Below are positions 1,076-51,141 of a stretch of 60,024 nucleotides of DNA, in pieces. Where the stretch lies: positions 1-60,024 of IMG/VR virus record IMGVR_UViG_3300025940_000009; one strand, given 5' to 3'. A model generated the notes under the pieces. The model searched no databases, had not been told where the DNA came from, and was given only the letters and a program-made list of their open reading frames with translations. How positions within the stretch are numbered: position 1 is the stretch's first letter; the number at the start of each line of letters is the position of its first letter. The position numbers and the translations under genes were made by a program. This DNA comes from a virus.

Positions 1076-2583
1076 TGGCACGTCGCCCGCGTTCGATGCC
1101 CGTTGACCGACCACTGCGGATGGGTGACATCAGCCGTGCCGGGCAGGCCAACCTCAATGCCCAGATGCGCAACCTCGGCTATGCCAAGCGCGACCAGCCC
1201 GGGTTGATGTCAGCACTGAGCGAGACCATCACCGATCCCAGCCGTCCGGAGAAGACCCGCAACGCTGCTCAGCGCCGCATCATCACCCATGAGGCGATGG
1301 CGGAAGCAAACGTCTTCACCAACAAGCCGATCACCATGGCCGGAGCGGTGCACAGTCAGCACGGCATGGTCGTGAGCGCGCAGGCCCGTGCTCGTCGGGA
1401 TGCTCCGATGGTCGGGGGTGGCTCCCAAGGCGCCGGGCTCGGACACCTTGGAGCCGACTGGTACTTCCAGCATCACGCCAAGTTGGCGGCGGTGGCCGAG
1501 GCCACCGGCCACACCCGGCAGCAGGTGATCGCAGCATCGGCGGTGATGTCACCTCAGAACAACCCGGACCAGGAGTACGCCGCAGTTCACGCCCTGGCCC
1601 ATGCGCACGCCGACCCCAACGCCCGGGTCAGGGTCAGCCCGGAGGCTGTGGCTGCCAGTGGCAACGCCGCCCTCGGTGACTACGTGGGCAAGTGGGTCCA
1701 TCCGTCGAAGATGTCGGCAGCAGCGTTCGCTTCGGTCAAGGACCCCACCGTCCGGGAGCACGTGCAGACCCGGGGCAACGTGGACCTGGAGGCGATGGCC
1801 AAGGGAGGCACGAGCGAGAATGTGATCAAGGCGGTCAACGTCCTGCGCGGCAAGACCCACCCGGGCCAGGCCATCGATCCCTCCACCAGTCCCAAGGTGT
1901 GGTCATATCACGAGGCCATCAAGAACAGCGAACCCGGCACCGACCAACACGCCGAGTTCATGAACCGCATGGACGTGGCGCTGCGCCAGACCAAGGGCCA
2001 GCAGCGCATGGACCTGTGGGGCTTGAAGTCGTCAACAGAGGGCATCCTGTCCCCCACGCACCCGATCGCCAACGACACCTGGATGCAGGCTCTCCAGAGC
2101 GGTCAGCAGATCGAGGCGGTGTCGACGGGGCGCAGCGGCAAGGCCAAGTTCCAGAGCCCGGCCAAGTTCGGTGTCGGGGAGGCCGGTGCGGCCAGCGAGA
2201 AGCGGCTGCGGGCCGGTGGTGTGCTACCAGGATCGAGCCCGCCGACGCTGCGCCATGCCTGGGGCCAGGAGTCCGTGGAGCGCCTGGCCCGGCACATGTC
2301 GGCCGAGTCTGGTGAGATCATCCCCTCGGTTGGTGCCCAGGCGGTGCCTTGGACCGAGGCGCGACGTCGGGCCGGAGGTGGCAAGGATCTCCCCTACGAG
2401 CGCATGGTGGCCCAGCACCAGGCGGCGACGTCGGACACGCTCCCGATCCATCCGGGGCAGGGTTCGATGTTCAAGTTCGAGGGTGATGACATCAACGTCA
2501 ATCCGCAGGCGGTGGCCAAGCGCTCGCAGATCCGCTCAGCCCAGCGCCGTGTCGGCCAACTCCGACAGGGCTCGCTGTTCTAG
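1075..2583 (+). CDS. Conserved phage protein, possibly DUF7178-like
   Basis: 502 residues from the ATG that overlaps the preceding TGA; an upstream in-frame start at 997 would overlap the previous gene heavily and is less likely. The middle has a helical region with ADWYFQHH, then VIAASAVMSPQNNPD, and later PIANDTWMQAL. The WY ... AASAVMSP ... N layout recalls the DUF7178 family of actinophages, whose function is unknown; this match is from memory and weak. The stretch QSIRSAQRR-like at the end is basic, as in many virion proteins. No signal peptide or membrane segment is visible. Confidence 0.55.
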   Translation: MARRPRSMPVDRPLRMGDISRAGQANLNAQMRNLGYAKRDQPGLMSALSETITDPSRPEKTRNAAQRRIITHEAMAEANVFTNKPITMAGAVHSQHGMVVSAQARARRDAPMVGGGSQGAGLGHLGADWYFQHHAKLAAVAEATGHTRQQVIAASAVMSPQNNPDQEYAAVHALAHAHADPNARVRVSPEAVAASGNAALGDYVGKWVHPSKMSAAAFASVKDPTVREHVQTRGNVDLEAMAKGGTSENVIKAVNVLRGKTHPGQAIDPSTSPKVWSYHEAIKNSEPGTDQHAEFMNRMDVALRQTKGQQRMDLWGLKSSTEGILSPTHPIANDTWMQALQSGQQIEAVSTGRSGKAKFQSPAKFGVGEAGAASEKRLRAGGVLPGSSPPTLRHAWGQESVERLARHMSAESGEIIPSVGAQAVPWTEARRRAGGGKDLPYERMVAQHQAATSDTLPIHPGQGSMFKFEGDDINVNPQAVAKRSQIRSAQRRVGQLRQGSLF

Positions 2584-2592
2584 GCTGCGCCG

Positions 2593-3189
2593 ATGCCCCG
2601 CCTTGCGCTGTGTCATCAGTGCGCCACGCTGACCCGCCTGCCCGACCCTCCCACTGGTGTGCGCATGGTCCCTGCTCGCATTGCTTGGATGGAGGACGGC
2701 CGCGAGGTCGAGTACGTCTACCGGGACGACGAGGGCGACCCGGTGATGGTGGCTGAGTACGACCCGGCCTTGGAGGACTGGGTGCGACGGCACGATCATC
2801 CGCATCCCGAGACGATGCGGATCCACGACATCTGGGCCTCGGACCAGTTGACCTGGGACACCGCCGACGTCGTGCACACCGTCCAGAAGGAGATGCTGGA
2901 CTCAACGGGCAAGATGTACGAGGAGCGGGAGGAGTTGAAGGCCGACGCCATCGCCTGCTTCAACAAGCACAATCGCCCGGAGTTCTCGTGCCCTGATGCA
3001 TTCAGCAAAGAGAAGATCATCGGCGGACACGAGTCGAACCGCAACATCCCGGACAACCAGAAGATGTACCTCTGCCATGCCTGTCCGTTTGTTCACGGTT
3101 ACATCGTGCCCAAGGTGCGGGCTCAGAAGGGCTACTACTCCGGCAAGATCGGCAAGCGGGTCGGTCTGCCAGTGAGGAGGCGCAAGTGA
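2593..3189 (+). CDS. Hypothetical protein with N- and C-terminal CxxC pairs
   Basis: 198 residues. CHQC lies at residues 8-11 and CHAC near residue 160, with two further cysteines between (ACF, FSC), suggesting structural zinc. The C-terminus is basic (GKRVGLPVRRRK). It starts 10 bases after the previous stop, and its own TGA is overlapped by the GTG of the next gene. I do not recognise the family. Confidence 0.55.
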   Translation: MPRLALCHQCATLTRLPDPPTGVRMVPARIAWMEDGREVEYVYRDDEGDPVMVAEYDPALEDWVRRHDHPHPETMRIHDIWASDQLTWDTADVVHTVQKEMLDSTGKMYEEREELKADAIACFNKHNRPEFSCPDAFSKEKIIGGHESNRNIPDNQKMYLCHACPFVHGYIVPKVRAQKGYYSGKIGKRVGLPVRRRK

Positions 3190-4286
3190 GGATCCACGGG
3201 ATCATCTCAGCCTATCTGGGTGATGGCGACTTCGACATCGGCACGGTCTCGCCCTGGCTCAACAACTTCGTGGAGACGCTGTTCTTCTACGACGGCGGCG
3301 CTACGGAGACCAACCGCTTCTACCAGGTGGACTACGCCAAGACGTTTCCGACAGCAAAGTTCGCCTACCACTCCACGTCGCGCCCGTCGTTCTTCGAGGA
3401 TAGTGCGTCCTTCCGGCAGGCTTCGTTTGAGGCAGCCGACGCGGCCTGGCACTATGCCGACGAGGACTGGGTGATCTTCCTCGATGCCACCGAGGCCCTT
3501 GGAACCTCCTTGCTGGCCACGGACATGCCGCTGTCACCGGACGGGGACTTCCTGATGCTGCGCAGCGTGGCGGCGACGGCGGTCGGCCAGGACATCGAGG
3601 TGGTCAACCTCCCGTTCTACGTGTTCCTGAACCAGGGCACCGTGGTCGAGGAGACCTACGTCATCGATCCGGACCTGGAGCCCTTGCCACCAGCAGAGCA
3701 GGCCTTGAACCGGGCCATCTACTGGTCGTGCACGCCGCACTACCTCTCGGCGGGCGAGAGCCTGGCCCGGTTCTTCCAGGTCTCACACCTTCGGGGCACG
3801 CCGGACTGGTCTGACCTGGACGTCTTGGACAGCATCCCTGATGACAACAGCATTGCCGTGGTGTCATACGCCTACGCCCGCTGGCAGCAGCAGGACTACC
3901 ACGATCCTTCGTTGTGGACGGAAGCAACTGATCTCGGCTTCGCCAACCGTGTGCTGATGGAAGCAGTGCGTTCGGTCGGGCTGCCTGTGGACTATGACAC
4001 GACAGATCCGGCTGGTACCGTCCCGACCTTCCCGGGCACGGAACCGGTGCTCTCGGTGCCGTACTGCTACTACCAGGACGAGTTGGCTGGTGATGCCATC
4101 GACAAGTTCGTGGCACTGTTTCGCCGCAATCCGCGTGACGGCGTGTGGTACCGGAACCGGGACATCGGTGCTGCACCAACAGATCCGCTGACTGGTGATG
4201 TCAACATCCTCACGCCATACGGCGTGCCGACCGGCCAGCAGGCCTGGGACAACCAGGTCCCGAGCGGTACGGGGACCAGCCTGTGA
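3186..4286 (+). CDS. Glycosyltransferase-like protein (GT-A type, tentative)
   Basis: 366 residues, GTG start overlapping the previous stop. The first third resembles a family 2 type glycosyltransferase fold: an N-terminal strand (RIHGIISAYLG), a mid-strand FFYDGG and, near residue 95, EDWVIFLDATEAL, which fits the DxD/DxE nucleotide-sugar site (here D-A-T-E). Such genes are frequent near the tail/lysis boundary of actinophages and may modify virion or host-surface glycans. The aspartate motif is not canonical and the C-terminal half is unassigned, so the role is a proposal only. Confidence 0.5.
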   Translation: MRIHGIISAYLGDGDFDIGTVSPWLNNFVETLFFYDGGATETNRFYQVDYAKTFPTAKFAYHSTSRPSFFEDSASFRQASFEAADAAWHYADEDWVIFLDATEALGTSLLATDMPLSPDGDFLMLRSVAATAVGQDIEVVNLPFYVFLNQGTVVEETYVIDPDLEPLPPAEQALNRAIYWSCTPHYLSAGESLARFFQVSHLRGTPDWSDLDVLDSIPDDNSIAVVSYAYARWQQQDYHDPSLWTEATDLGFANRVLMEAVRSVGLPVDYDTTDPAGTVPTFPGTEPVLSVPYCYYQDELAGDAIDKFVALFRRNPRDGVWYRNRDIGAAPTDPLTGDVNILTPYGVPTGQQAWDNQVPSGTGTSL

Positions 4287-6656: not shown

Positions 6657-7234
6657 CACCGATCTACCTCCTGTCGGGCATCTCGGTGGGGGTGATCGCC
6701 GTTGTCACCGCTGTCGGCGGATGGTCGGATCTTGCTGAGCCAACAACGCCGACCACCACGACGACGGTGCCAGCAGTGACGGTGGTCATCCAGGGATCAG
6801 ACGGTGCTAACGGAACCAACGGTGTGAGCGGTGTCGGTCCACCTGGGCCTCCAGGGCCAGCAGGGCCTCCGGGTGAGAGCGTGACAGGGCCTCCGGGACC
6901 CGCCGGGCCTCCTGGATCCTCTGTTGTCGGGCCTGCCGGGCCTCCGGGCTCATCGGTGGTTGGACCTGTTGGAGCGACGGGTGCCACAGGGCCTCCTGGT
7001 TCATCTGTCACAGGTCCGCCGGGGCCAGCGGGACCACCAGGCTCGTCCGTCGTCGGTCTGCCGGGACCAGCGGGGCCATCCGGTGAGTCGATCACCGGTC
7101 CGCCGGGACCACCTGGGCCAGCGGGACCACCGGGACCACCGGGGGTGATCTGTCCTGATGGGTATACATTTCAGCCGCTGAAACTCAACTCCCCTGGAGG
7201 GCAGGTCGACTTGTTCGTCTGCATGTTGCCATGA
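6653..7234 (+). CDS. Membrane-anchored collagen-like protein
   Basis: 193 residues, GTG start overlapping the previous stop. Residues 1-25 form a hydrophobic segment (signal anchor), then a Thr/Pro linker, then about 110 residues of Gly-X-Y repeats ([13 protein letters not shown]) with interspersed GSSV breaks, then a globular end with two cysteines (VICPDGY, LFVCMLP). Collagen-like repeats trimerise and are common in phage fibres; with an N-terminal membrane segment this one may instead be displayed by the infected cell or take part in lysis. Confidence 0.75.
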
Positions 7235-8568
7235 CAACGCTCTACTTCGCTGGTGCCGAGATCAAGACCCACCTGGAACTGCTCCGGGAGTGCGGGATCA
7301 CGCGCTACGCCCTCAATGGTTCTGTACTCATGCGTCGGACCAAGAAGGTGTGGGATGCCTCCACGCTCCCTGAGGGCGCCGAGTGGGTGTTGTTCACCAA
7401 CCGGGGTGAGGATCTGAACCTCATCAGGCCGCTCATCGAGCAGAAGCCCACGATCCTCGTCGGGCCGCTGTCGTGGGTCGATGATCCGCTGGTGGCTGAT
7501 GCCATTGACACGTTCGCCCCGTTGTGGACGCCGGACGCCGCTTTCGAGCCCGGCTACACGGCGCCGATGGTCTCGTTGGCCGAGCCGGTGGTGAAGGATC
7601 CCGTCCAGTTCCGCAAGGCCCTCGGACGGTTCCCGGACACCAACGTTATGGCTGTCACCGGCATCACCAAGGGCGTGGAGCGCCTGGACTCCCTGGCCAC
7701 TACGGCTTGGTACTCGGTGCTGAAGTCGGGCGAGACGCAGGTGTGGGCCAACAACCGGCTCCGGCGGTACCCCAACACGCAGCAGATCGAGGCCCGTGCC
7801 AAGCACCTGGACGATTTCGCCGCGCTCGGCTGCAACCCCACCGAGATCGCCAATGGCTCCAGCGCCGAGGCGGCGAGAGGCGCCATCAAGTCGTGGCTGG
7901 CGTGGGAGGAGCGGCACAACGACGCTCCGAGCCTGGTTCTATTGTCAAACATGGCGCCGATGCAGGACGCCGTGATGCCAGCATCTCCGGTGACGAGCAT
8001 TGCCAATCACCCCTCCGTGATGCGGCACGTGCACGAGCAGCAGCCGCTGCCGGTGTTCGGCTTCGACTCGCTGGTGAGCACCTACAAGGACGGCGAGGGC
8101 CGCGACGTCCACGAGGAGACGGTCATCGTCACCTCGCCCAACCACTCGCAGCGGATGTGCAGCACGTGCGTGCTGGCCAACAACTGCCCCGCTTGGAACC
8201 CGGGCTCGGCGTGCGCCTTCAACATCCCCTTGGAGATCCGGACCAAGGACCAGTTGCAGGCGACCATGCGGGCCATGGTCGAGATCCAGGGCCAGCGGGT
8301 GGCCTTCGCCCGGTTCGCTGAGGAGGCCTCCGGCGAGGTCTTGGACGTCGGCGTGTCGATGGAGATGGACCGCTTCTTCCGGCTCATCAAGGACATGCGC
8401 GACATCAGCGACACCCGGGACGTGGTGCGGCTGGAGATGGAAGCACGAGGCAACGCTGGGATGTTGTCCCGCATCTTCGGGTCTGGCGTCGGGGCCGCAG
8501 CGAGGGCTGTGACCATCCCGATGTCCGGCGACGAGGTGATCACGACGTTGGATGACCACGACACCTGA
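7231..8568 (+). CDS. Conserved actinophage protein with C-terminal four-cysteine motif
   Basis: 445 residues, ATG overlapping the previous stop. The N-terminal strand [15 protein letters not shown] looks like the start of a Rossmann or TIM-type fold. Near residue 308 is a tight cluster [10 protein letters not shown] with a further C nine residues on, followed by [13 protein letters not shown] and [16 protein letters not shown] recall the same C-terminal signature in other actinophage proteins of unknown function. The cysteines suggest zinc or Fe-S binding. A link to transglycosylase-like base modification enzymes was considered but is not supported by a clear motif. Confidence 0.6.
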
Positions 8569-10902: not shown

Positions 10903-11469
10903 CTACACCGCTGCGGCGGTGGCCTTCTTCGTCGCCACCCGCTTGCTGGGGGCCGACGCCTTCGGAGCCGTCGCCTTCTTGGCGGGAGCAGGCTTCGCAG
11001 CCTTGGCCGGGGCGGGCTTCGCAGCCTTGGCAGCCGGGGCCTTCGCAGCCTTGGCAGCCTTGGCAGCCTTGGCAGCCTTGGCAGCCTTGGCAGCCGGGAC
11101 CTTCTTGGCCGGAGCCTTCGTGGACTTGGCCGCGGTCTTGGCGGGCGCCTTGCCGTTCTTGGCCGGAGCCTTGGTGGTCGGGGCCTTCGCCGTCTCGGCG
11201 GTCCTGCCGTTGGTGTAGGCCTCGTTCGACTGCACGACGACGTTGCCGTCAGCAAGCGTGCGGATCTTCACGCTCAGGCCCTTGCGGGTGGCCGAGGTGC
11301 GGATGACGCGCTCGATCGAGGACGTGGGGCCGTCGAAGTCGATCCCGTTCTCCAGGAGGACGATCTTGCCCGAGAACCACTTGGGCCACGGGTACGCAGC
11401 CGACCGGGGCTTGGTCGGACGCTTGTCGATGTTCTTGGTACTCCAGTCGTAGGACTTCAGGGTCTGCAT
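10903..11469 (-). CDS. Histone-H1-like DNA-binding protein
   Basis: 188 residues. Residues 1-95 form a small globular part with no clear family. The rest is a Lys/Ala/Pro tail with AAK repeats (AKAAKAAKAAKAAK) of the kind found in eukaryotic H1 and in bacterial H1-like proteins such as actinobacterial HupB tails. Such tails bind DNA without sequence specificity and compact it. Good RBS (AAGGAGCAAGAGACC) and its own promoter upstream. It may compact phage DNA or replace host nucleoid proteins. Confidence 0.75.
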   Translation of the reverse strand: MQTLKSYDWSTKNIDKRPTKPRSAAYPWPKWFSGKIVLLENGIDFDGPTSSIERVIRTSATRKGLSVKIRTLADGNVVVQSNEAYTNGRTAETAKAPTTKAPAKNGKAPAKTAAKSTKAPAKKVPAAKAAKAAKAAKAAKAAKAPAAKAAKPAPAKAAKPAPAKKATAPKASAPSKRVATKKATAAAV

Positions 11470-11540: not shown

Positions 11541-13310
11541 TCACCCCCGGGAGAGATATCGGATGAGGAACTGGGGCATCTCCTCCAGCGACGTGATCTC
11601 GTGGAAGGCATCGATGGCGTCGAGGCCTTTGATCACCGTGCGCTCGTTCCGGTAGAAGAACAGCACGATGTCCCGGTAGGGCGCGGTGTACTCGGCCAGC
11701 GAGTGGTGGGCGTTGAAGTCACCGTCAAACTCGCCATCGGTCATGATGATCACGAGGTGCCGCTGACGCTCGAAGCGCTGGCCGTGGAGGGTGGCGAGCA
11801 CGGGGGTTGGGTCGGTGCCCGACATCTCGGCAAAGTCCCGCGGCGGGAACAGTGGGGAGTCGTCCGGCTCCCACAGGATCGTGCCGTTGTCCGAGAAGGT
11901 GGTCACGGTGCAAGGCACCTCGGCTACCTCGCAAGCCTTCTTCATGGCGTAGGCCGCGATGCCCAGTGCCTCGATGTCGGCATCCATCGAGCCCGAGCCG
12001 TCGAGCACGACTGACACGGCCAGGTTGGGGTACTGGAAGTCGCCACCGGCAGCGTAGGTGCGGCGGTACTCCTGGTCGCCCGGCTGGCGGGTCTTGTAGC
12101 GCATGACGTTGATGACACCATGGCGCTGCCCCTCGTGCCACGTGGGAGCGATGCGCTCCCGGCCCTGGCGGATCATGTTGGCGAAGGCCCGGTACAGCGC
12201 CTCACCCTGGGCCAAGCCCTTCGGGTTGGGCAGGCCCGGCTTCAACTCCAGTGGCAGGCCTTCGTCCTGGGCCTTCTGCTTGGCTCGGTTGTAGGCCTTG
12301 CGGTCCTGGATGACGCCGTCATCCTTGTTCCGCTCGGCCTCGGCGTTCTTGAAGGCGTCAGCAGCAGCCGTGCGTGCGTCCTTCGCTGCCTCGGACAGCG
12401 TGCCGGGCTGCGGATTGGCGTTCTCCCGAGTCTCCTTGATGGCGTCACGAATGTCGTCCTTGTCGCATGCACCAGCAGCCACGAGATCATCCACGCCGAC
12501 GTTGTTGTCGAGCATCGGGCTCGGAAGGATGGTGTGCTGGCCGACTGCCTTCTGTGTGGTGTCGGCAACATGACTGCTCAGCATGTCGACCATGCGGAGC
12601 ACCTCGGTCATCATGCTGTGTGCATCAGTGGCGCCCATGTAGCGGGTCACGATGCCCTCGTACTCCTTCACCAAGTCCTCGCCGTGGTGCAGTGCCGCCA
12701 CCTCACGGGAGGTGGAGCGCACGTCGACCGGGAGGTACAGCCGTCCAGCCAGGAGCCAGTAGTCGTCGGCCTTGCCGTAGATGTACCGCAGCACGAGCGG
12801 TGTGTAGTACTTGATCAGGTTCGGGGAGCGGCCGACCATGGTCGCTTCCATGCGCTGGTCCTCCAGCACGTTCCACGCCCACTGGACATCCCCGGTGTTC
12901 CGCCCGGCTGTGATGGGCGTGGGCGCGTGCTTCTCAGCCTCAGCGATGAGGTCGGGCAGCGGCACCGTGACCAACAGGTGGCCCGCCTCGTGGTACGTCA
13001 GGCCGCGGATGATGCCGAAGTAGTCGGCCTCGTTCGCCACGTTCTCGGAGACCCGGATGTTGATCGACTTGAAGTCGGTGAAGGCCACAGGGTCGGGGCC
13101 ATGTCCGGTCGTGAGGTAGAACGGCACCCGGCGGCGGACCCACGTGTCGACGGAAGCAGACAGCCGAGGGTGGAGTCCGCGGAGGATGGCGTGCGAGTGG
13201 GCGGGCGTCAAGTCCTTTCTCCACGAGCGCCACGAGTCGAAGCGCCGGAGGTCTTCCAGGATCTCGACGGCGTACCGCTTCTGCTGTCGGTTGCGGCGGG
13301 TGGCTGGCAT
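11541..13310 (-). CDS. Zincin-like plus VWA domain protein (CobT-like partner of MoxR ATPase)
   Basis: 589 residues from ATG 13310, seven bases after a -10, so probably leaderless. Residues 107-111 are HEAGH, a zinc-peptidase type helix, with a Glu-rich LEDQRME at about 149-155 as likely third ligand. The C-terminal third is a von Willebrand A domain with intact MIDAS DGSGS at 437-441, a Thr/Asp loop (SGTDPTP) and IIMTDGEFD. The layout matches CobT-type VWA proteins that work with a MoxR/CobS AAA+ ring, and exactly such an ATPase is encoded divergently at 13669. The substrate is unknown. Confidence 0.85.
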   Translation of the reverse strand: MPATRRNRQQKRYAVEILEDLRRFDSWRSWRKDLTPAHSHAILRGLHPRLSASVDTWVRRRVPFYLTTGHGPDPVAFTDFKSINIRVSENVANEADYFGIIRGLTYHEAGHLLVTVPLPDLIAEAEKHAPTPITAGRNTGDVQWAWNVLEDQRMEATMVGRSPNLIKYYTPLVLRYIYGKADDYWLLAGRLYLPVDVRSTSREVAALHHGEDLVKEYEGIVTRYMGATDAHSMMTEVLRMVDMLSSHVADTTQKAVGQHTILPSPMLDNNVGVDDLVAAGACDKDDIRDAIKETRENANPQPGTLSEAAKDARTAAADAFKNAEAERNKDDGVIQDRKAYNRAKQKAQDEGLPLELKPGLPNPKGLAQGEALYRAFANMIRQGRERIAPTWHEGQRHGVINVMRYKTRQPGDQEYRRTYAAGGDFQYPNLAVSVVLDGSGSMDADIEALGIAAYAMKKACEVAEVPCTVTTFSDNGTILWEPDDSPLFPPRDFAEMSGTDPTPVLATLHGQRFERQRHLVIIMTDGEFDGDFNAHHSLAEYTAPYRDIVLFFYRNERTVIKGLDAIDAFHEITSLEEMPQFLIRYLSRG

Positions 13311-13317
13311 GAGGGAC

Positions 13318-13347
13318 AGCGTACACGGGTTCGGAACCCTTGCACAA
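13318..13347 (-). promoter_or_regulatory. Promoter with GGGTTCCGAACCC operator in spacer, for VWA gene
   Basis: Minus strand TTGTGC, 18-base spacer AAGGGTTCCGAACCCGTG, TACGCT, then seven bases to the ATG. A repressor bound to the palindrome would block polymerase. The mRNA is predicted to be leaderless. Confidence 0.7.
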
Positions 13348-13385
13348 GTCACCGGAACCAACGTCTTCTCAGAGGCTCCAGGATG

Positions 13386-13577
13386 CCCCAGGATCGATGA
13401 GACCCCACTTCCGCACCCAGCACCCCACCCGGCCTCTGTTGTCTCAACAGAGACGAATCGGGTGTTGTCAAGTTGTAGCCGGAAACAGCCTCTGACCTGC
13501 GTCAATGTCAATGCTGCTACATGAAACCCGCTTGCGACCAGGGTTTCAGAGATTTCCCTGCATTCATGCGGGTTTCA
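13386..13577. repeat. Duplicated intergenic element, copy A
   Basis: An ungapped core of 128 bp (13386-13513) matches 26895-27022 at about 72 percent by manual count, from CCCCAGGATCGA to GCGTCAATGTCAATG, with TTGTCAAGT and CCGGAAACA conserved inside. The colinear match continues to GCATTCATGCGGGTTT at 13560. Copy A also holds a perfect CTCTGTTG/CAACAGAG hairpin. The whole 358-base gap 13311-13668 has no gene; besides this element it holds the two divergent promoters. Confidence 0.75.
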
Positions 13578-13597
13578 GCGAAAGTGGCCGATATGAC

Positions 13598-13638
13598 TTG
13601 CATATGACCCCTCCATATCTGATATGGTTCCGAACCAT
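13598..13638 (+). promoter_or_regulatory. Promoter and downstream operator of MoxR gene
   Basis: TTGCAT at 13598, then TGATATGGT with -10 TATGGT at 13623 (19-base spacer; shifted -10 readings give 17-18). The 15-bp palindrome ATGGTTCCGAACCAT (13624-13638) covers the -10 and start region. It is the same core as the operators that lie in promoter spacers elsewhere. Confidence 0.55.
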
Positions 13639-13668
13639 GCGATCCCCCTCCACCACGGCGGCTGACCG

Positions 13669-14838
13669 ATGAAGGCCTCAGACCTTCTCCCTGGCCGTGA
13701 CTACCTGCTGGACGACAGCCGTGAGGCGACGGTGGTCAATGCGACCCCGGTGCCCGATGGCAGGCCGAACCAGCGCAAGGTGCTCGTCACCATCGACGGC
13801 GAGGAGGAGTACATCCTTCCCCGCCAGATCGCCACGGCCAAGCCGATTGTGACCAAGACGGTCAAGCCGCTCCCGACCAAGAAGGTCGTCCGCCGCTCGC
13901 TGGCGCTGGATGACCCCCGGCTCGACATGTTCCGCCCCGACCCCTCGGTGGTCGAGACCTACGTCAGCCGCAAGATGGCCAACGGCCAGCGCGACATCGA
14001 CTACTTCCTGGAGTGCTGGAGGCGGAAGGAGAACGTCCTTCTCGTCGGTGACACGCAGGCGGGCAAGTCGCTGCTCGTGCGGGTGCTGGCCGTCCTTGCT
14101 GGCAACGTCATGGGCCTCGGCAAGCCGCTGCCCGTGTTCACCCTGTCGGGCTCGTCGGGCATCACCGACTTCGACCTGTTCGGCCAGCCGCAGTCGTGGA
14201 CCGACGATGACGGCAAGGAGCGTCTGGTGTGGCTGCCCGGCGTCGTTGACCTTGCCTCCCGTGTCGGAGGGATCCTCGACCTGGACGAGATCGGCATGAT
14301 GGGCGAGCGCGTCACGTCCTCGCTGCACCCGGTGTGCGATTGGCGGCGCATGTTCGTCAACCGCAACAAGCCGGTGCTCGTGCCCGGCGACGGCTTCATG
14401 CCCGAGCAGGTCAAGGTCTCCGATGACCTGTGGATCGTGGCCACCACGAACCCGAGCACGTACCGTGGTTCCGGAACCCTGAACGAGGCGTTCGCCAACC
14501 GGTTCCGCCACATCATGTGGGACTACGACGAGAGCGTGGAGAAGGTGCTGATCCGCAACGAGGGCGTGTTGGCCCTCGGTGAGGCGCTGCGCAACGCCCG
14601 AGCCGTCAACCACGTCCGCACGCCGATCGGCACCGCCGCCCTCATCCGCTGCGCCCAGGACGTCGAGCGCGATGGTGTGGACATGGCATTGTTCTGCCTC
14701 GTGTCCATGTTCACCTCCGACGAGCGGCCGGTGGTCAACGAGATCATCGAGTCCCGGTCGTACCGCGGCCTCATCTCCAAGGCGGCATCCGATGGTGGGT
14801 CGATCTTTGACCTGCCCGACGAGGACCAGCCGTTCTGA
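13669..14838 (+). CDS. MoxR-type AAA+ ATPase
   Basis: 389 residues. Residues 1-90 form an extra N-terminal part; the AAA+ core has Walker A GDTQAGKS (127-134), Walker B GILDLDEIG (about 201-209), sensor 1 VATTNPS and an arginine finger in EAFANRFRH. These are the marks of the MoxR/CobS group, hexameric ATPases that pair with VWA proteins to remodel or insert metal into targets. The VWA/zincin gene is divergent 358 bases away. The operator over the transcription start suggests co-control of the pair. Confidence 0.88.
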   Translation: MKASDLLPGRDYLLDDSREATVVNATPVPDGRPNQRKVLVTIDGEEEYILPRQIATAKPIVTKTVKPLPTKKVVRRSLALDDPRLDMFRPDPSVVETYVSRKMANGQRDIDYFLECWRRKENVLLVGDTQAGKSLLVRVLAVLAGNVMGLGKPLPVFTLSGSSGITDFDLFGQPQSWTDDDGKERLVWLPGVVDLASRVGGILDLDEIGMMGERVTSSLHPVCDWRRMFVNRNKPVLVPGDGFMPEQVKVSDDLWIVATTNPSTYRGSGTLNEAFANRFRHIMWDYDESVEKVLIRNEGVLALGEALRNARAVNHVRTPIGTAALIRCAQDVERDGVDMALFCLVSMFTSDERPVVNEIIESRSYRGLISKAASDGGSIFDLPDEDQPF

Positions 14839-15563: not shown

Positions 15564-16385
15564 ATGGAAACCGCAGCCTCTGCGCCTGGCAAGGCGATGA
15601 ACAGCATCACGCTCCAGTGGGGCCTGATCAGCCTGCCCCTCTCGATCTACAAGGCGACCGAGGACATCGCCATCGCCCGCAAGGAGTTCTACGGCGACGA
15701 GCCCGTGGGGCGTCAGTACATCGTCAAGCGCACCGGCGACGTCATCGAGTACTCCGACGTCGAGAAGCGGGCGCTCGCCAGCAATGGCACGTGGGTCGCG
15801 CTGTCGGACGATGAGATTGCCCAGGCGACCGGCAACCGTGAGCGCTGCGAGGTGATCACGTTCATCCCGATGTCGGCCATCGGCACGCAGTACGCCGCCG
15901 AGGGCATCGACTATGTCCGCCCCAAGCGCTACAAGGGTCGCAGCCTGTGCGACGAGCCCTTCGCCCTGCTGATGGCAGCAATGGCTCAGACCGGTACGGC
16001 GGCGCTTCTCCGGTTGGCCCTGCGTGGTCCGGCCCGCTTCGCTGCGCTCACCTCTGAGGGCACGCTGATCTACCTGGCGCCTGTCCAGGCGCTCCGGGAG
16101 GCCCCGCCCCTGCCGAGCGTTGCTGCCGACAGCAAGGTGCTGGCCGTCGCTGTCACCTTCATCGAGACGACGGGCATCACCACGCCGACGCTGAGCAACG
16201 ACAACCCGGCCAAGGTCCAGGACTTCATCGACGCCAAGGCCGCTGGCAAGGCTCCCAGCGCTCTGGAGAAGGCTGCTCCTGTCAACAACGGTGCCGACAT
16301 CATGGAGAGCCTGATGGCCTCCATCGCCCAGCAGGAAGCCAAGAAGATCGTCCGCAAGCGGACCACGAAGAAGGGAGCAGCGTGA
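15564..16385 (+). CDS. ku: Ku homologue (DNA end-binding protein)
   Basis: 273 residues. After about ten extra residues it follows bacterial Ku closely in order: TLQWGLISLPLSIYKATED, YIVKRTGDVIEYSDVEK, GTWVALSDDEIAQ, EVITFIP, then FALLMAAMAQTGTAALLRLALRG and FAALTSEGTLIYLAPV. The C-terminal part is a shorter extension ending in KIVRKRTTKK. Ku forms a ring on DNA ends and recruits LigD for end joining. Phages Omega and Corndog carry Ku and use it for genome circularisation with host ligase. No LigD is visible here. Confidence 0.85.
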   Translation: METAASAPGKAMNSITLQWGLISLPLSIYKATEDIAIARKEFYGDEPVGRQYIVKRTGDVIEYSDVEKRALASNGTWVALSDDEIAQATGNRERCEVITFIPMSAIGTQYAAEGIDYVRPKRYKGRSLCDEPFALLMAAMAQTGTAALLRLALRGPARFAALTSEGTLIYLAPVQALREAPPLPSVAADSKVLAVAVTFIETTGITTPTLSNDNPAKVQDFIDAKAAGKAPSALEKAAPVNNGADIMESLMASIAQQEAKKIVRKRTTKKGAA

Positions 16386-18766: not shown

Positions 18767-18777
18767 GGTTCCGAACC

Positions 18778-19065
18778 ATGCGACAGATCACCCTCACCGA
18801 GGAGCAGACCGAGGCCATCGAAGCGTGGTGTGATGACAACGACGTCACACTGCGTCTCGGCTACAGCGGCCGTGGCATGAACGGCGAATCCTGCATCGGC
18901 ATCGTCACCGACGAGGATCCTGTGCAGGCGTCGGTCAACCTCTCTACCTACCTGGCCAAGGCGTTCCCCGATGACGAGGCCTTCCTGGCCGAGATGCGGC
19001 GCATGGGCCGGGACAACATGGGCCAGTCCACCATCATCTACTGGCCGAGCGTCAAGGCGCCCTGA
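18778..19065 (+). CDS. Hypothetical protein
   Basis: 95 residues, ATG immediately after a GGTTCCGAACC palindrome and 11 bases after the previous stop, with no RBS visible. MRQITLTEEQTEAIEAWCDDND then a beta region and a C-terminal helix EAFLAEMRRMGRDN. Translation may depend on coupling to the preceding gene. Function unknown. Confidence 0.55.
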   Translation: MRQITLTEEQTEAIEAWCDDNDVTLRLGYSGRGMNGESCIGIVTDEDPVQASVNLSTYLAKAFPDDEAFLAEMRRMGRDNMGQSTIIYWPSVKAP

Positions 19066-21744: not shown

Positions 21745-21795
21745 CTGATGTCACAACAGCCTGACTGGCATCAGGGTACCGAACCCTGATAGACC
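21741..21795 (+). promoter_or_regulatory. Promoter with both operator types
   Basis: GTGACTGATGTCAC (21741-21754), 11-base gap, weak -35 TGGCAT (21766), 18-base spacer CAGGGTACCGAACCCTGA, TAGACC (21790-21795). It combines the upstream GTGAC palindrome with a GGGTaCCGAACCC variant between -35 and -10. Leader of about 30 bases with RBS GAAAGGGAA. Confidence 0.75.
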
Positions 21796-23172: not shown

Positions 23173-23227
23173 GTGACATCAGTCACGCCCACCTGACTGG
23201 CGCCAAGGTTCCGAACCCTGATAGAAC
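23173..23227 (+). promoter_or_regulatory. Promoter with both operator types
   Basis: GTGACATCAGTCAC (23173-23186), 11-base gap, weak -35 TGGCGC (23198), 18-base spacer CAAGGTTCCGAACCCTGA, TAGAAC (23222-23227), eight bases to the ATG. GGTTCCGAACC sits between -35 and -10. Confidence 0.75.
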
Positions 23228-23235
23228 AGAGAGCG

Positions 23236-23643
23236 ATGACCACCACACACGAGATCCTGAACGAGACGGCCCACACCCTGTGGAACACGGGCGGCTCGCA
23301 CCGAGGCTTCATCCAGATCAGCCGCAGCGGCCGGGTCCAGATCCGAGGCGAGCAGCACCAGGAGGCCGAGGTGGTCCAGTTCACCGATTCGGTGCTGACC
23401 ATCAAGATCGCCGGAGGCAAGTACTGGTCCGGTCGTGGCTCGCAGGGCTACTCCGGCGCCGAGGTGCGCACGTACCTCGTCCACGAGGTGGCGGTTGTCA
23501 CCGGTGACAACGACAACTTCGACAACATCACGGTGAGCGGCGTGCAGATCAACTGGCACTACGTCACCGCCCAGTACACCAAGGCCGAGCGCGCCTCCCA
23601 GGCCATCGACCGCGCCATCGCCAACCAGGAGGCCAGCAAGTGA
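23236..23643 (+). CDS. Hypothetical protein, leaderless start
   Basis: 135 residues. A beta-rich core (GFIQISRSGRVQIRGEQHQ, VLTIKIAGGKYW) and a helical end (KAERASQAIDRAIANQEASK). First of four overlapping genes. No family recognised. Confidence 0.55.
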   Translation: MTTTHEILNETAHTLWNTGGSHRGFIQISRSGRVQIRGEQHQEAEVVQFTDSVLTIKIAGGKYWSGRGSQGYSGAEVRTYLVHEVAVVTGDNDNFDNITVSGVQINWHYVTAQYTKAERASQAIDRAIANQEASK

Positions 23644-31578: not shown

Positions 31579-32337
31579 CTACTCGCAGCCGATGCCGTCC
31601 CGGTCCCGGTCGAGTTTGGTCGAGTAGCCCGGGTCTCCGATGTGGATCGGGGCCGCTCCGGCCGCTCGAACGGCGTCGCAGTTGGCGTAGGAGACACTGG
31701 GTGCAGGGGCCGGTGTCACAACAGGGGCCGGTGCAGCGGTAGGAGCCGGAGTGGGGACCGGACGGGGCGCTGCTGTGACGACAGGGGCCGGGGTGGTCGG
31801 CGGAGCGCACTCGTAGTTCGGAGTGGCCTCGTCCAGGGCCACGTAGTCGGCTTCCCTCGGATGTCCGCCATAGCCGTCGCGGCTGTCGTAGCGGGCGATG
31901 GCGTAGCCCTCACCGATCAGGTAGCGCCCGGCGTCCCCGGCTGATGTGTCGACATAGCGCAGGATGCGCCCGTAGCGGTCGACGTCGTCCCGTGCACCGC
32001 CTGTCACGACAACAGGCTGGTTGAGGACGAGTTCGGTCAGGCGGGCTGCTGCCACATCAGCGCCGCAGTCGCCCACCTCGGGGGTGTCGATGCCGATGAT
32101 GCGGACACGCTCTCCCGTTGAGAGGTCGACGGTGTCGCCGTCGATCACGTTGATGACGGTGACAGTGGCGACGGTGGGCACCGGGAGGGTGACGGATTCG
32201 GGCTTGGCCAGCGTTGTCGTCACCTCAGTCACGGGAGCCGCCGTTGTTGCAGGAACGGTTGTGTCAGATGTCACAGCCTCGCTGCTTTCACAGGCAGCCA
32301 GGGCTATGAGTGGGAGGAGCAGGAGCGCCTTGTTCAT
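31579..32337 (-). CDS. Secreted thermonuclease lipoprotein with excalibur domain
   Basis: 252 residues. Signal peptide with lipobox ALAAC (Cys16), a Thr/Val/Pro linker, then a staphylococcal-nuclease domain: IDGDTVDL, VRIIGIDTPE and DRYGRILRYV supply the calcium Asp residues and the catalytic Arg79, Glu87 and Arg124 equivalents. A Pro/Ala linker leads to an excalibur domain (DRDRDGIGCE). All active-site residues are present. It may degrade DNA at the cell surface, recycling nucleotides or blocking other phages. ATG six bases after the -10. Confidence 0.88.
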   Translation of the reverse strand: MNKALLLLPLIALAACESSEAVTSDTTVPATTAAPVTEVTTTLAKPESVTLPVPTVATVTVINVIDGDTVDLSTGERVRIIGIDTPEVGDCGADVAAARLTELVLNQPVVVTGGARDDVDRYGRILRYVDTSAGDAGRYLIGEGYAIARYDSRDGYGGHPREADYVALDEATPNYECAPPTTPAPVVTAAPRPVPTPAPTAAPAPVVTPAPAPSVSYANCDAVRAAGAAPIHIGDPGYSTKLDRDRDGIGCE

Positions 32338-32343
32338 CCTGAC

Positions 32344-32372
32344 AGTTTAGCAGGGTTCGGAACCCTTGTCAG
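32344..32372 (-). promoter_or_regulatory. Promoter with GGGTTCCGAACCC operator in spacer
   Basis: Minus strand CTGACA, 17-base spacer AGGGTTCCGAACCCTGC, TAAACT, six bases to the ATG. It overlaps the last codons of the upstream gene, whose C-terminal GSEPC is encoded by the operator. Confidence 0.8.
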
Positions 32373-33414: not shown

Positions 33415-33562
33415 CTTCCACCAGTTCCATCTCGACGTCGTCAAGATAGACGTTGGACTGCATGAAGGCCTTCCAGTAGCCCTCGGTGAGGGGACCGTTG
33501 GGGCCGGGGTCGTAGTCGTGGTCCTCGATGTCCATGTAGCCGGTGACACGGATGCGCTTCAC
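33407..33562 (-). CDS. 51-residue acidic protein
   Basis: GTG 33562; KRIRVTGYMDIEDHDYDPG then a helix WKAFMQSNVYLDDVEMELVEDD. Overlaps the next gene by eight bases and the previous by four. Unknown function. Confidence 0.5.
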   Translation of the reverse strand: MKRIRVTGYMDIEDHDYDPGPNGPLTEGYWKAFMQSNVYLDDVEMELVEDD

Positions 33563-33894
33563 GACTCCACCTTGAAGAAGGCGAGGACGAGGGTGGCCAG
33601 CACCTGACCGCCGATGTAGTTGTCATCACCGTCGTACTGGATGACCGTGCGGGCCTCGCTGATGAGATCATCAGCGGTGACCTGGTGAGGCTTCTGGCGC
33701 CGCTCGGCCTGGCAGTCCCGGCACTCGGTGCCGCGGTGCCAGCGGTGGTCGGTGGGGTCCTGGGAGTGCCCTCCAGCGTTGGTGACGGTGGGGAAGGCCT
33801 GCACGTTCTTGGACTTGCGGCAGGTCCGGCAGACCATGGTGGTCGTGTCGAGATCGAGGTGCTCGTTGAGGTGCAGGACGTACGCTCCAGGCAT
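33559..33894 (-). CDS. Zinc-finger protein, leaderless start
   Basis: 111 residues. CRTCRKSKNVQAF (22-34) and GTECRDCQAERRQ (about 56-68) form a four-cysteine site with intervening His, like HNH-type zinc scaffolds but without the nuclease motif. First gene of a six-gene overlapping operon. Confidence 0.6.
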   Translation of the reverse strand: MPGAYVLHLNEHLDLDTTTMVCRTCRKSKNVQAFPTVTNAGGHSQDPTDHRWHRGTECRDCQAERRQKPHQVTADDLISEARTVIQYDGDDNYIGGQVLATLVLAFFKVES

Positions 33895-33901
33895 GGCGAC
33901 A

Positions 33902-33930
33902 AGTGTAGCAGGGTTCGGAACAACAAGAAA
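33902..33930 (-). promoter_or_regulatory. Promoter with partial operator in spacer
   Basis: Minus strand TTTCTT, 17-base spacer GTTGTTCCGAACCCTGC, TACACT, seven bases to the ATG. The palindrome keeps the GTTCCGAAC core. The -35 lies in the T-rich tail of the terminator next to it. Confidence 0.7.
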
Positions 33931-35626: not shown

Positions 35627-35817
35627 GATGTCACCAGCAGATCGAGCACGACGTCGAGGCTGAAGCGGTGGACCGCACCGGGCAGCCGGACTTGGAGCCC
35701 GGGATCCATGTCGAGCATTGTGCTGTCGCTGATCCAGCGGACCGACTCCACGTGGTCGAAGGTCTGGGTGAACGGTTCGGGATGCTCCGGTGTTGAGACG
35801 ACCAGGGTGACGTTCAT
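35623..35817 (-). CDS. 64-residue hypothetical protein
   Basis: ATG 35817 overlapping the previous stop. Beta-rich (VTLVVSTPEHPEPFTQTF) with a helical end. Unknown function. Confidence 0.5.
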   Translation of the reverse strand: MNVTLVVSTPEHPEPFTQTFDHVESVRWISDSTMLDMDPGLQVRLPGAVHRFSLDVVLDLLVTS

Positions 35818-36332
35818 CGCTGGGGTTCCCAGGGCCATGCGGGCTCGGTGGCGCCGTACTTGGCCTTCAGGCGCTCGTACTCGGCCCGCTCCTTCATCTC
35901 CTCGGTCGCCTTGCGCTGGCGCTTGTCCTCGGCCTCCTGGCGCTTCATCTCGGCCTGGACTGCCTTGTGCTTCTCTTCTGCTTCCGCTACCAGCACATCG
36001 GTCCGGGCCTTGTAGGCCTCGGGATCGAACGGCCACTCCTCGTAGCCGACCCACATCTCCCACGAGTCACGCTCGTAGTCCTCGACGCTCCAGTAGACGC
36101 CGTCCCCGCTGATGACCACCTCGGGCTCGCAGAAGTCGTTCCTGCCGCGGGTCTTCGGGAACCTTTCGGAGAGGTTGGCGGGCTTCCCGTACAGGGCGAG
36201 GTGGGTCCGAGCATGGCGGTCGTTGTACGCAGCGGCGATGTCACTGATCAGCGTTGGGTCGAGTAGGTGCTGCTCGATCTGCTGGCGGGCGTCGTAGAAG
36301 TGCTTCAGTTCGAGCACGGTGGGGAGCGGCAT
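35814..36332 (-). CDS. Coiled-coil protein, leaderless start
   Basis: 172 residues. The N-terminal half is globular (VLELKHFYDARQQIEQHL ... VYWSVEDYERDSWEMW); residues 115-165 form a long charged coiled coil (AEAEEKHKAVQAEMKRQEAE). First gene of the 35 kb leftward operon. Unknown function. Confidence 0.6.
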   Translation of the reverse strand: MPLPTVLELKHFYDARQQIEQHLLDPTLISDIAAAYNDRHARTHLALYGKPANLSERFPKTRGRNDFCEPEVVISGDGVYWSVEDYERDSWEMWVGYEEWPFDPEAYKARTDVLVAEAEEKHKAVQAEMKRQEAEDKRQRKATEEMKERAEYERLKAKYGATEPAWPWEPQR

Positions 36333-36339
36333 GCCCGGA

Positions 36340-36368
36340 AGTGTAGCAGGGTTCCGAACCCTTGTCAT
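36340..36368 (-). promoter_or_regulatory. Promoter with GGGTTCCGAACCC-type operator in spacer
   Basis: Minus strand ATGACA, 17-base spacer AGGGTTCGGAACCCTGC, TACACT, seven bases to the ATG. Same arrangement as at 32344. Confidence 0.8.
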
Positions 36369-50370: not shown

Positions 50371-50900
50371 TGCTCTCCGACGCGCAGTTCGAGGGCCTCG
50401 CGGCCAAACTCAACGACCCCGACATCGGCGGGTTCACGGCGAACATGCGCCGCGGCGGGGAGCAGCCCAGGAACGTCTTCATGGTCGGCCAGCGGGACGT
50501 CCAGGAGGGCACCCATGCGCTGCCGTCGACCGGGTCCTCGATCCGGACCTACGCCGAGGCGAACCAGACGACGTTGATGCAGCCTGGTCGGCACCTCGGT
50601 GGCTGGGCGGCGAACGAGGGCAACCTTGATGTGCCAGCAGCGTTCCCCCGCACACCGAGGGGTGAGGTTGCCGCCCGGCGCTCGACGCTGGCCAACGAGC
50701 AGATGGCCTACGGGGAGATCAGTCGCAAGGGCGCCTATGTCGGGGACCGCAACAACCCGTACCACCCGGGCAACCGCCGGGGCGACATCATGGCCGAGGA
50801 CACGCCGGAGCAGCGTGAGGTATGGTCTGCCATGCCCCAGTACTCGGCGCAGTTCAAGAAGAGGGGTCGGAGGATCAGCCCTCAGTCCTCGTTCTCGTGA
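50370..50900 (+). CDS. Hypothetical virion-type protein
   Basis: 176 residues. Gly/Arg/Asn-rich with QRDVQEGTHALPSTGSS and GRHLGGWAANEGNLD; low-complexity composition like the proteins at 4940 and 38973. Its last 19 bases are overlapped tail to tail by the leftward gene at 50882. Confidence 0.5.
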   Translation: MLSDAQFEGLAAKLNDPDIGGFTANMRRGGEQPRNVFMVGQRDVQEGTHALPSTGSSIRTYAEANQTTLMQPGRHLGGWAANEGNLDVPAAFPRTPRGEVAARRSTLANEQMAYGEISRKGAYVGDRNNPYHPGNRRGDIMAEDTPEQREVWSAMPQYSAQFKKRGRRISPQSSFS

Positions 50901-51103
50901 CCCAGTAGGTACTGCTCGGTCTTGCCTTGGCTGTCGGTGTCAACAACGACCAGTTCCCAGTCCGAGTGCTCGGCGCAGGTGTGGGGCGGATCACCGGGGA
51001 CCAGTGTCTTGTCGCACACGACACAGGTCTCCGAGTGCCCGGACATCAGCCGGTGCTTGCTCACGCCGACCCGCTTCAGTGCTTCGTTCTTGTACCCGAT
51101 CAT
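50882..51103 (-). CDS. Lone leftward gene in head block, zinc-type protein
   Basis: 73 residues from ATG 51103, seven bases after its -10. MIGYKNEALKRVGVSKHRL, then HSETCVVCDKTLVPGDPPHTC AEH ligands (C-x2-C-x11-C-x2-H) and a C-terminal acidic end. Its promoter has the GGGTTCCGAACCC operator, so it should be controlled with the 32-36 kb leftward genes and not with the virion genes around it. Moron-like. Confidence 0.65.
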   Translation of the reverse strand: MIGYKNEALKRVGVSKHRLMSGHSETCVVCDKTLVPGDPPHTCAEHSDWELVVVDTDSQGKTEQYLLGHENED

Positions 51104-51110
51104 GAGTGCC

Positions 51111-51141
51111 ACTGTAGCAGGGTTCGGAACCCTAGTGTCAA
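51111..51141 (-). promoter_or_regulatory. Promoter with GGGTTCCGAACCC operator in spacer
   Basis: Minus strand TTGACA, 19-base spacer CTAGGGTTCCGAACCCTGC, TACAGT, seven bases to the ATG. The -35 is in a TGACATTGACA context related to the 12-mer repeat. Confidence 0.75.

Follow-up and report, generated by a model that had tools for sequence, protein, structure and literature searches.

A phage MoxR ATPase and VWA protein pair with an invariant peptidase-like site and palindromic promoter sites

The window, by which we mean the whole stretch of DNA analysed, is a virus record of 60,024 bases in which the genes for a VWA protein and a MoxR-type ATPase are divergently arranged. A longer, TTG-started VWA ORF is also listed and represents an upstream extension of the ORF that starts at ATG 13310. 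The motifs and ORFs located in the window, listed below, agree with the earlier note in its description of a VWA protein with intact MIDAS and HEAGH motifs, divergent from a complete MoxR ATPase.

11541-13310, minus strand: VWA gene, 589 amino acids, from ATG 13310 to the stop at 11541
VWA protein, about residues 36-250: predicted N-terminal zincin-like domain
VWA protein, residues 253-282: low-confidence stretch, followed by a helical linker
VWA protein, about residues 427-589: C-terminal VWA domain, with a conserved P389/W391/G398 region ahead of it
12978-12992, minus strand: HEAGH (H107-E108-x-x-H111), predicted zinc ligands and catalytic glutamate
12846-12872, minus strand: N147-V-L-E150-D151-Q-R153-M-E155, with E150 the candidate third ligand
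11988-12002, minus strand: MIDAS motif DGSGS, residues 437-441 (D437, S439, S441)
11814-11816 and 11736-11738, minus strand: T499 and D525, which complete the MIDAS
13669-14838, plus strand: MoxR-type AAA+ ATPase gene, 389 amino acids (AAA_5, PF07728, E 1.6e-9)
14047-14070, plus strand: Walker A motif GDTQAGKS (K133)
14287-14289, plus strand: E207 of the Walker B motif LDE
14449-14451, plus strand: sensor-1 N261
14500-14502, plus strand: R278, assigned as the arginine finger by position

The terminase large subunit (TerL) and capsid protein of the record share about 50% and 59% identity, respectively, with those of the nearest phages, which are Streptomyces phages such as BRock, and an actinobacterial host is therefore likely. 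Similar DNA to positions 1-25,000 of the window was not found in the phage collection. The VWA gene is followed on its own strand by genes for a lysine-rich protein and for a DUF3987 helicase/primase-like protein; small genes and one for a Ku-like protein lie downstream of the ATPase gene. The latter, a Ku-like DNA end-binding protein, is encoded at 15597-16385 (Pfam Ku, E 6.6e-15). The product of 10903-11469, directly downstream of the VWA gene, carries a lysine/alanine-rich tail (KAAKAAKAAKAA) and gave no convincing family match.

A tblastn search identified relatives in Gordonia and Brevibacterium phages, annotated as AAA-ATPase and CobT-like. The pairs of DalanDe and GMA6 (Gordonia) and of Cantare (Brevibacterium) are likewise adjacent genes with all motifs conserved, but they are arranged in tandem and their VWA proteins are 20-25% identical to that of the window. 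Protein scans of viral contigs with the window's own two proteins gave no confirmed relative. Retrieval from IMG/VR succeeded with an alignment including three Gordonia and Brevibacterium homologues and with two motif patterns, giving 93 relatives of which 80 were kept. The ATPase gene adjoins the VWA gene in all 80, and the MoxR/VWA pair is widespread. The gene order in 48 dereplicated loci is an ATPase-VWA tandem in 41, a VWA-ATPase tandem in three and divergent in four, the window included. Compared with the window, the three closest relatives are 59-64% identical over the ATPase core and 29-43% over the two VWA-protein domains, the pattern to be expected of an adaptor that changes more quickly than its motor. 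A narrow, single-pattern scan of genome contigs recovered three MAG contigs only and is too insensitive for the family to be called phage-restricted.

There is strict conservation at the key positions of both proteins. H107, E108, H111, L149, E150, D151 and R153 are invariant in all 72 VWA proteins compared, as are D437, S439 and S441 of the MIDAS, with T499 and D525 present in 71 of 72 (one gap). In the ATPase K133, E207, N261 and R278 are each conserved in 72 of 72. Loss of the MIDAS in relatives, named in the earlier note as an observation that would speak against its reading, was not seen. Might this invariance simply reflect the search? The exact YHE pattern is absent from 38 relatives and exact LEDQR from 16, and all of these keep the conserved residues, so the invariance is not the result of search selection; H111 and the MIDAS were in neither retrieval pattern. 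In addition two phages, reached through capsid kinship and a profile and not by motif, have HEGCH, LEDER or IEDER, and DESGS.

Models of the full VWA protein and of the isolated N-terminal domain have mean pLDDT values of 83.9 and 93.8, respectively. In the N-terminal model a first helix is followed by three strands, by the helix that carries HExxH and by that of E150. This places HExxH on one helix and the candidate third ligand in a later one, as judged solely from the sequence and the predicted secondary structure. Two metallopeptidase entries, 4L7A and the minigluzincin 4JIU, account for all of the three best Foldseek rows for this domain, with an E value of 0.027 at best. The top 50 VIA rows are mostly zincins, the highest Z being 6.4 (74 residues, 2.8 Å). 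Structural neighbours include M1 aminopeptidases, HtpX, abylysin, jannalysin, selecase, Ste24 and the DPC-repair protease of 6MDW. These matches are modest (Foldseek E above 0.01, Z below 8) and fall largely within the domain's first 78 residues, and no Pfam peptidase family convincingly matched the N-terminal domain (61 such domains run). The dominance of zincins among the predicted fold neighbours is support, not proof, for a peptidase-like domain. Together with HExxH and the downstream glutamate in 72 of 72 proteins it sustains the earlier proposal of a peptidase-like part joined to the VWA domain in one chain.

The VWA domain best matches NorD in NorQ complexes (E 7.3e-7) and the Rea1 MIDAS domain (Z 17.9, 3.1 Å, 194 aligned). 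The solved CobT chains 9UKA and 21VU are absent among the Foldseek matches listed, an absence that excludes nothing. By profile the ATPase is closest to midasin, then to CbbQ and NorQ (E about 1e-38 to 1e-35) and then to CobS (1e-16). No RavA entry is present in the PDB lists for the ATPase at E 1e-3, nor in the 60 matches listed at 1e-4, and the two may still be kin. Midasin (Rea1), similar in both ATPase family and VWA fold, is one giant eukaryotic chain that serves ribosome assembly and is not known to have a zincin arm.

The sequence GTTCCGAAC forms palindromic sites, with eight exact copies in the window against 0.36 expected; none of 100 shuffles reaches eight. All eight are 2-34 nt upstream of a gene start, after correction by eye of the start for the site at 32355, and positions up to 60 nt ahead of a start in our own gene calls make up only 9.6% of the window. 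The sites and associated promoter elements are as follows.

13327-13339, minus strand: palindrome GGGTTCCGAACCC in the VWA promoter spacer
13329-13337: GTTCCGAAC, 19 nt ahead of the VWA ATG
13318-13323, minus strand: candidate -10 TACGCT, 7 nt ahead of the VWA ATG, as read from the sequence
13624-13638, plus strand: palindrome ATGGTTCCGAACCAT ahead of the MoxR gene
13627-13635: GTTCCGAAC, 34 nt ahead of the MoxR ATG
18768-18776, plus strand: GTTCCGAAC, 2 nt ahead of the ATG region of gene 18778-19065
23208-23216, plus strand: GTTCCGAAC ahead of gene 23236-23643
32355-32363, minus strand: GTTCCGAAC with -10 TAAACT, ahead of a nuclease-like gene ending at 31579
33913-33921, minus strand: GTTCCGAAC with -10 TACACT and N7-ATG, gene 33559-33894
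36351-36359, minus strand: GTTCCGAAC with -10 TACACT and N7-ATG, gene 35814-36332
51122-51130, minus strand: GTTCCGAAC with -35 TTGACA, -10 TACAGT and N7-ATG, gene 50882-51103

A common layout of palindrome, -10-like hexamer and 6-7 nt to the ATG is seen at five minus-strand sites, that of the VWA gene among them, and the proximity of the candidate -10 to the VWA ATG suggests a leaderless transcript. In the closest relative, L005 (VWA protein 33% identical), the promoters of the pair carry GGGTACGGTACCC and the imperfect TGGTACGGGACCT at the same positions, followed by TGCTAGACT and TGCTAGAAT. Palindromes are thus present in both promoters with altered sequence; the architecture is kept and the operator changed. 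A scan of the 76 kb L005 contig with our own degenerate pattern gave two further low-symmetry matches with no start codon nearby. The near-palindrome GGGTACCGAACCC at 21774-21786 is a hybrid of the window and L005 operators. We also note eight IMG/VR fragments (L104-L111) identical to the window around operator sites, probably from the same or a sister phage. The earlier note envisaged shared control of the two genes. Sites do occur in both promoters, and the pair may be switched by a phage regulator through a shared palindromic operator, but the arrangement is not private to the pair since at least six more promoters carry sites.

The recurrent neighbours of the pair that could be identified are the pyrimidine dimer glycosylase family, WhiB, helicase, primase, SSB, DNA polymerase, ribonucleotide reductase (RNR) and PHROG_887. 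No structural genes are found among these identifiable families, several clusters being without a family match. In 20 of 48 loci the pair has a PHROG_887 member no more than 8 kb away, and this protein shows the motif C-x2-C ... C ... C. The PHROG_887 protein of the window, encoded at 7231-8568, has the Cys4 motif and is a candidate partner or substrate.

The arrangement described fits a kind of phage system reported by Iyer 2021 (PMC7824862), with adjacent MoxR and VWA genes and an N-terminal HExxH peptidase-like domain, represented here by the invariant HEAGH and E150 and the zincin-like prediction. The group 2.2 jumbo-phage pair of that study (ASV44729/ASV44728), likened by its described architecture, combines MoxR with a vWA protein that has an N-terminal metallopeptidase domain; the window pair differs in that it occurs in a 60 kb record, is divergent and has shared palindromic operators. 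On the basis of its motifs the pair is a member of this known, poorly characterised kind, with a well-conserved peptidase-like site.

How might such a pair work? We put at about even the chance that it constitutes one ATP-driven remodelling machine, in which a ring motor is combined with a VWA adaptor bearing a predicted, probably cleaving, zincin arm. The MoxR protein would be expected to form an ATP-driven ring, onto which the VWA protein would dock by way of its VWA domain, in the manner of NorD on NorQ. The MIDAS metal would grip an acidic residue of the target, and the zincin-like arm, with HExxH and E150, would probably bind zinc and cleave the target as it is pulled or twisted open by the motor. 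Both genes, placed among those of the replication region, would be switched by the shared palindromic operator. In this way the pair could process or inactivate a target protein, as had been suggested from the sequence, with the caveat that the invariant HExxH and E150 residues would also suit a structural metal site. A more specific proposal, which we advance tentatively and consider less probable, is that of an ATP-dependent phage metalloprotease built to a design not previously recognised. The ring and the zincin would be on separate proteins, the VWA adaptor docked in the ring to give one peptidase arm per hexamer, and the machine would act early in infection by cleaving a protein of the host or of the phage. 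A PADLOC search with the window proteins gave no match, so a known defence system is not indicated.

Other functions have to be considered alongside that of a remodelling machine with a cleaving arm. A role in virion assembly, proposed by Iyer 2021 (PMC7824862) for jumbo-phage pairs in which MoxR accompanies a vWA protein fused to an N-terminal metallopeptidase domain, would make the pair a chaperone with peptidolytic processing of structural proteins. The same authors cite a peptidase-free MoxR-vWA pair as needed for archaeal virus tail assembly. We judge this rather unlikely, although a tail role is possible. The genes sit with replication genes in the window, the Gordonia phages and Cantare, and structural genes are lacking among the recurrent neighbours identified. 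Moreover, four Streptomyces phages with TerL 49-50% and capsid 59% identical to those of the record give no ATPase match and weak, partial VWA matches (E 9e-4 to 8e-3), and the two weak VWA frames read from them are without HExxH. The pair is therefore not generally required for that capsid type; two gut phages do have it, and their capsid genes are more distant. A function in metal insertion is suggested by NorQ and NorD, the bacterial pair whose VWA fold is nearest and whose ATPase sequence is also close, with the same layout of N-terminal domain, linker and VWA domain. The ring of NorQD is plugged by the VWA domain, and mutation of the MIDAS leaves the target inactive while NorQ binding is retained (PMC9976466, PMC13036017). 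The N-terminal domain of the phage protein might similarly hold a metal without cleaving, and the pair might mature a metalloprotein of the phage, such as the Cys4 PHROG_887 protein given its frequent proximity. This we think unlikely. HExxH with a downstream glutamate is the signature of a hydrolytic zincin, whereas NorD, part of an iron-insertion chaperone with cytochrome c nitric oxide reductase as target, has no described peptidase site and its N-terminal domain is not described as a hydrolytic zincin (PMC9976466, PMC13036017). The linkage to PHROG_887 may also be plain synteny of the replication region.

A cobaltochelatase/B12 role has been proposed for archaeal tailed viruses (Liu 2021, PMC8651126), and relatives of the window pair carry the annotation 'CobT-like' in SEA-PHAGES. 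That the pair represents CobS/CobT-like cobaltochelatase subunits, which would team with host CobN to raise vitamin B12, appears to us improbable. The VWA half is indeed homologous to cellular CobT (hhalign 98.1%, E 9.6e-14), and VEQARVE of CobT resembles LEDQRME of the pair, but the N-terminal halves show no significant homology (hhalign 0.3%) and PF06213, the CobT N-terminal family, is not among the matches of any of 61 N-terminal domains. All 72 phage proteins have HExxH, against 0 of 14 typical CobTs with full frames scanned, a comparison based on 16 PF06213 loci sampled from one phylum. The equivalent stretch in typical CobTs is H-D/N-xxx-H (H-D-xxx-H in L094), then a motif such as VEQARVE. 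The divergent L103 is the only sampled PF06213 locus with HExxH. Its cellular protein (1471-3663) has HECGH, LEDPRVE and DTSGS, matches PF06213 just over the cut-off and may link CobT to the zincin-VWA family. CobT works with CobN, which is found in 0 of 48 phage records, although the host may supply it, and the ATPase scores far higher against CbbQ and NorQ than against CobS. RNR, which we take from our reading of the sequence to be of the B12-dependent class where PHROG 367 says only ribonucleotide reductase, is near the pair in 15 of 48 loci. We discounted this proximity as support for B12 synthesis because the matches belong mainly to one lineage and RNR was not detected in the window. Since typical CobTs are without HExxH, CobN is absent from all 48 records and no RNR was detected in the record, cobaltochelatase function is not supported, and the CobT name would fit the pair solely by VWA homology. 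The likeness to CobS/CobT and RavA/ViaA put forward in the earlier note thus holds in so far as a MoxR/VWA remodelling pair is concerned; equation with CobS/CobT does not, the ATPase being nearer to midasin, CbbQ and NorQ, and RavA/ViaA finds no counterpart in the ATPase PDB matches listed.

The distinction is of some consequence. Phage pairs of the same kind are catalogued in two ways, as a B12 auxiliary metabolic gene or as a chaperone-peptidase, and the data favour the second. The presence of an invariant peptidase-like site across very diverged phages bears on ecological claims of phage-driven cobalamin synthesis.
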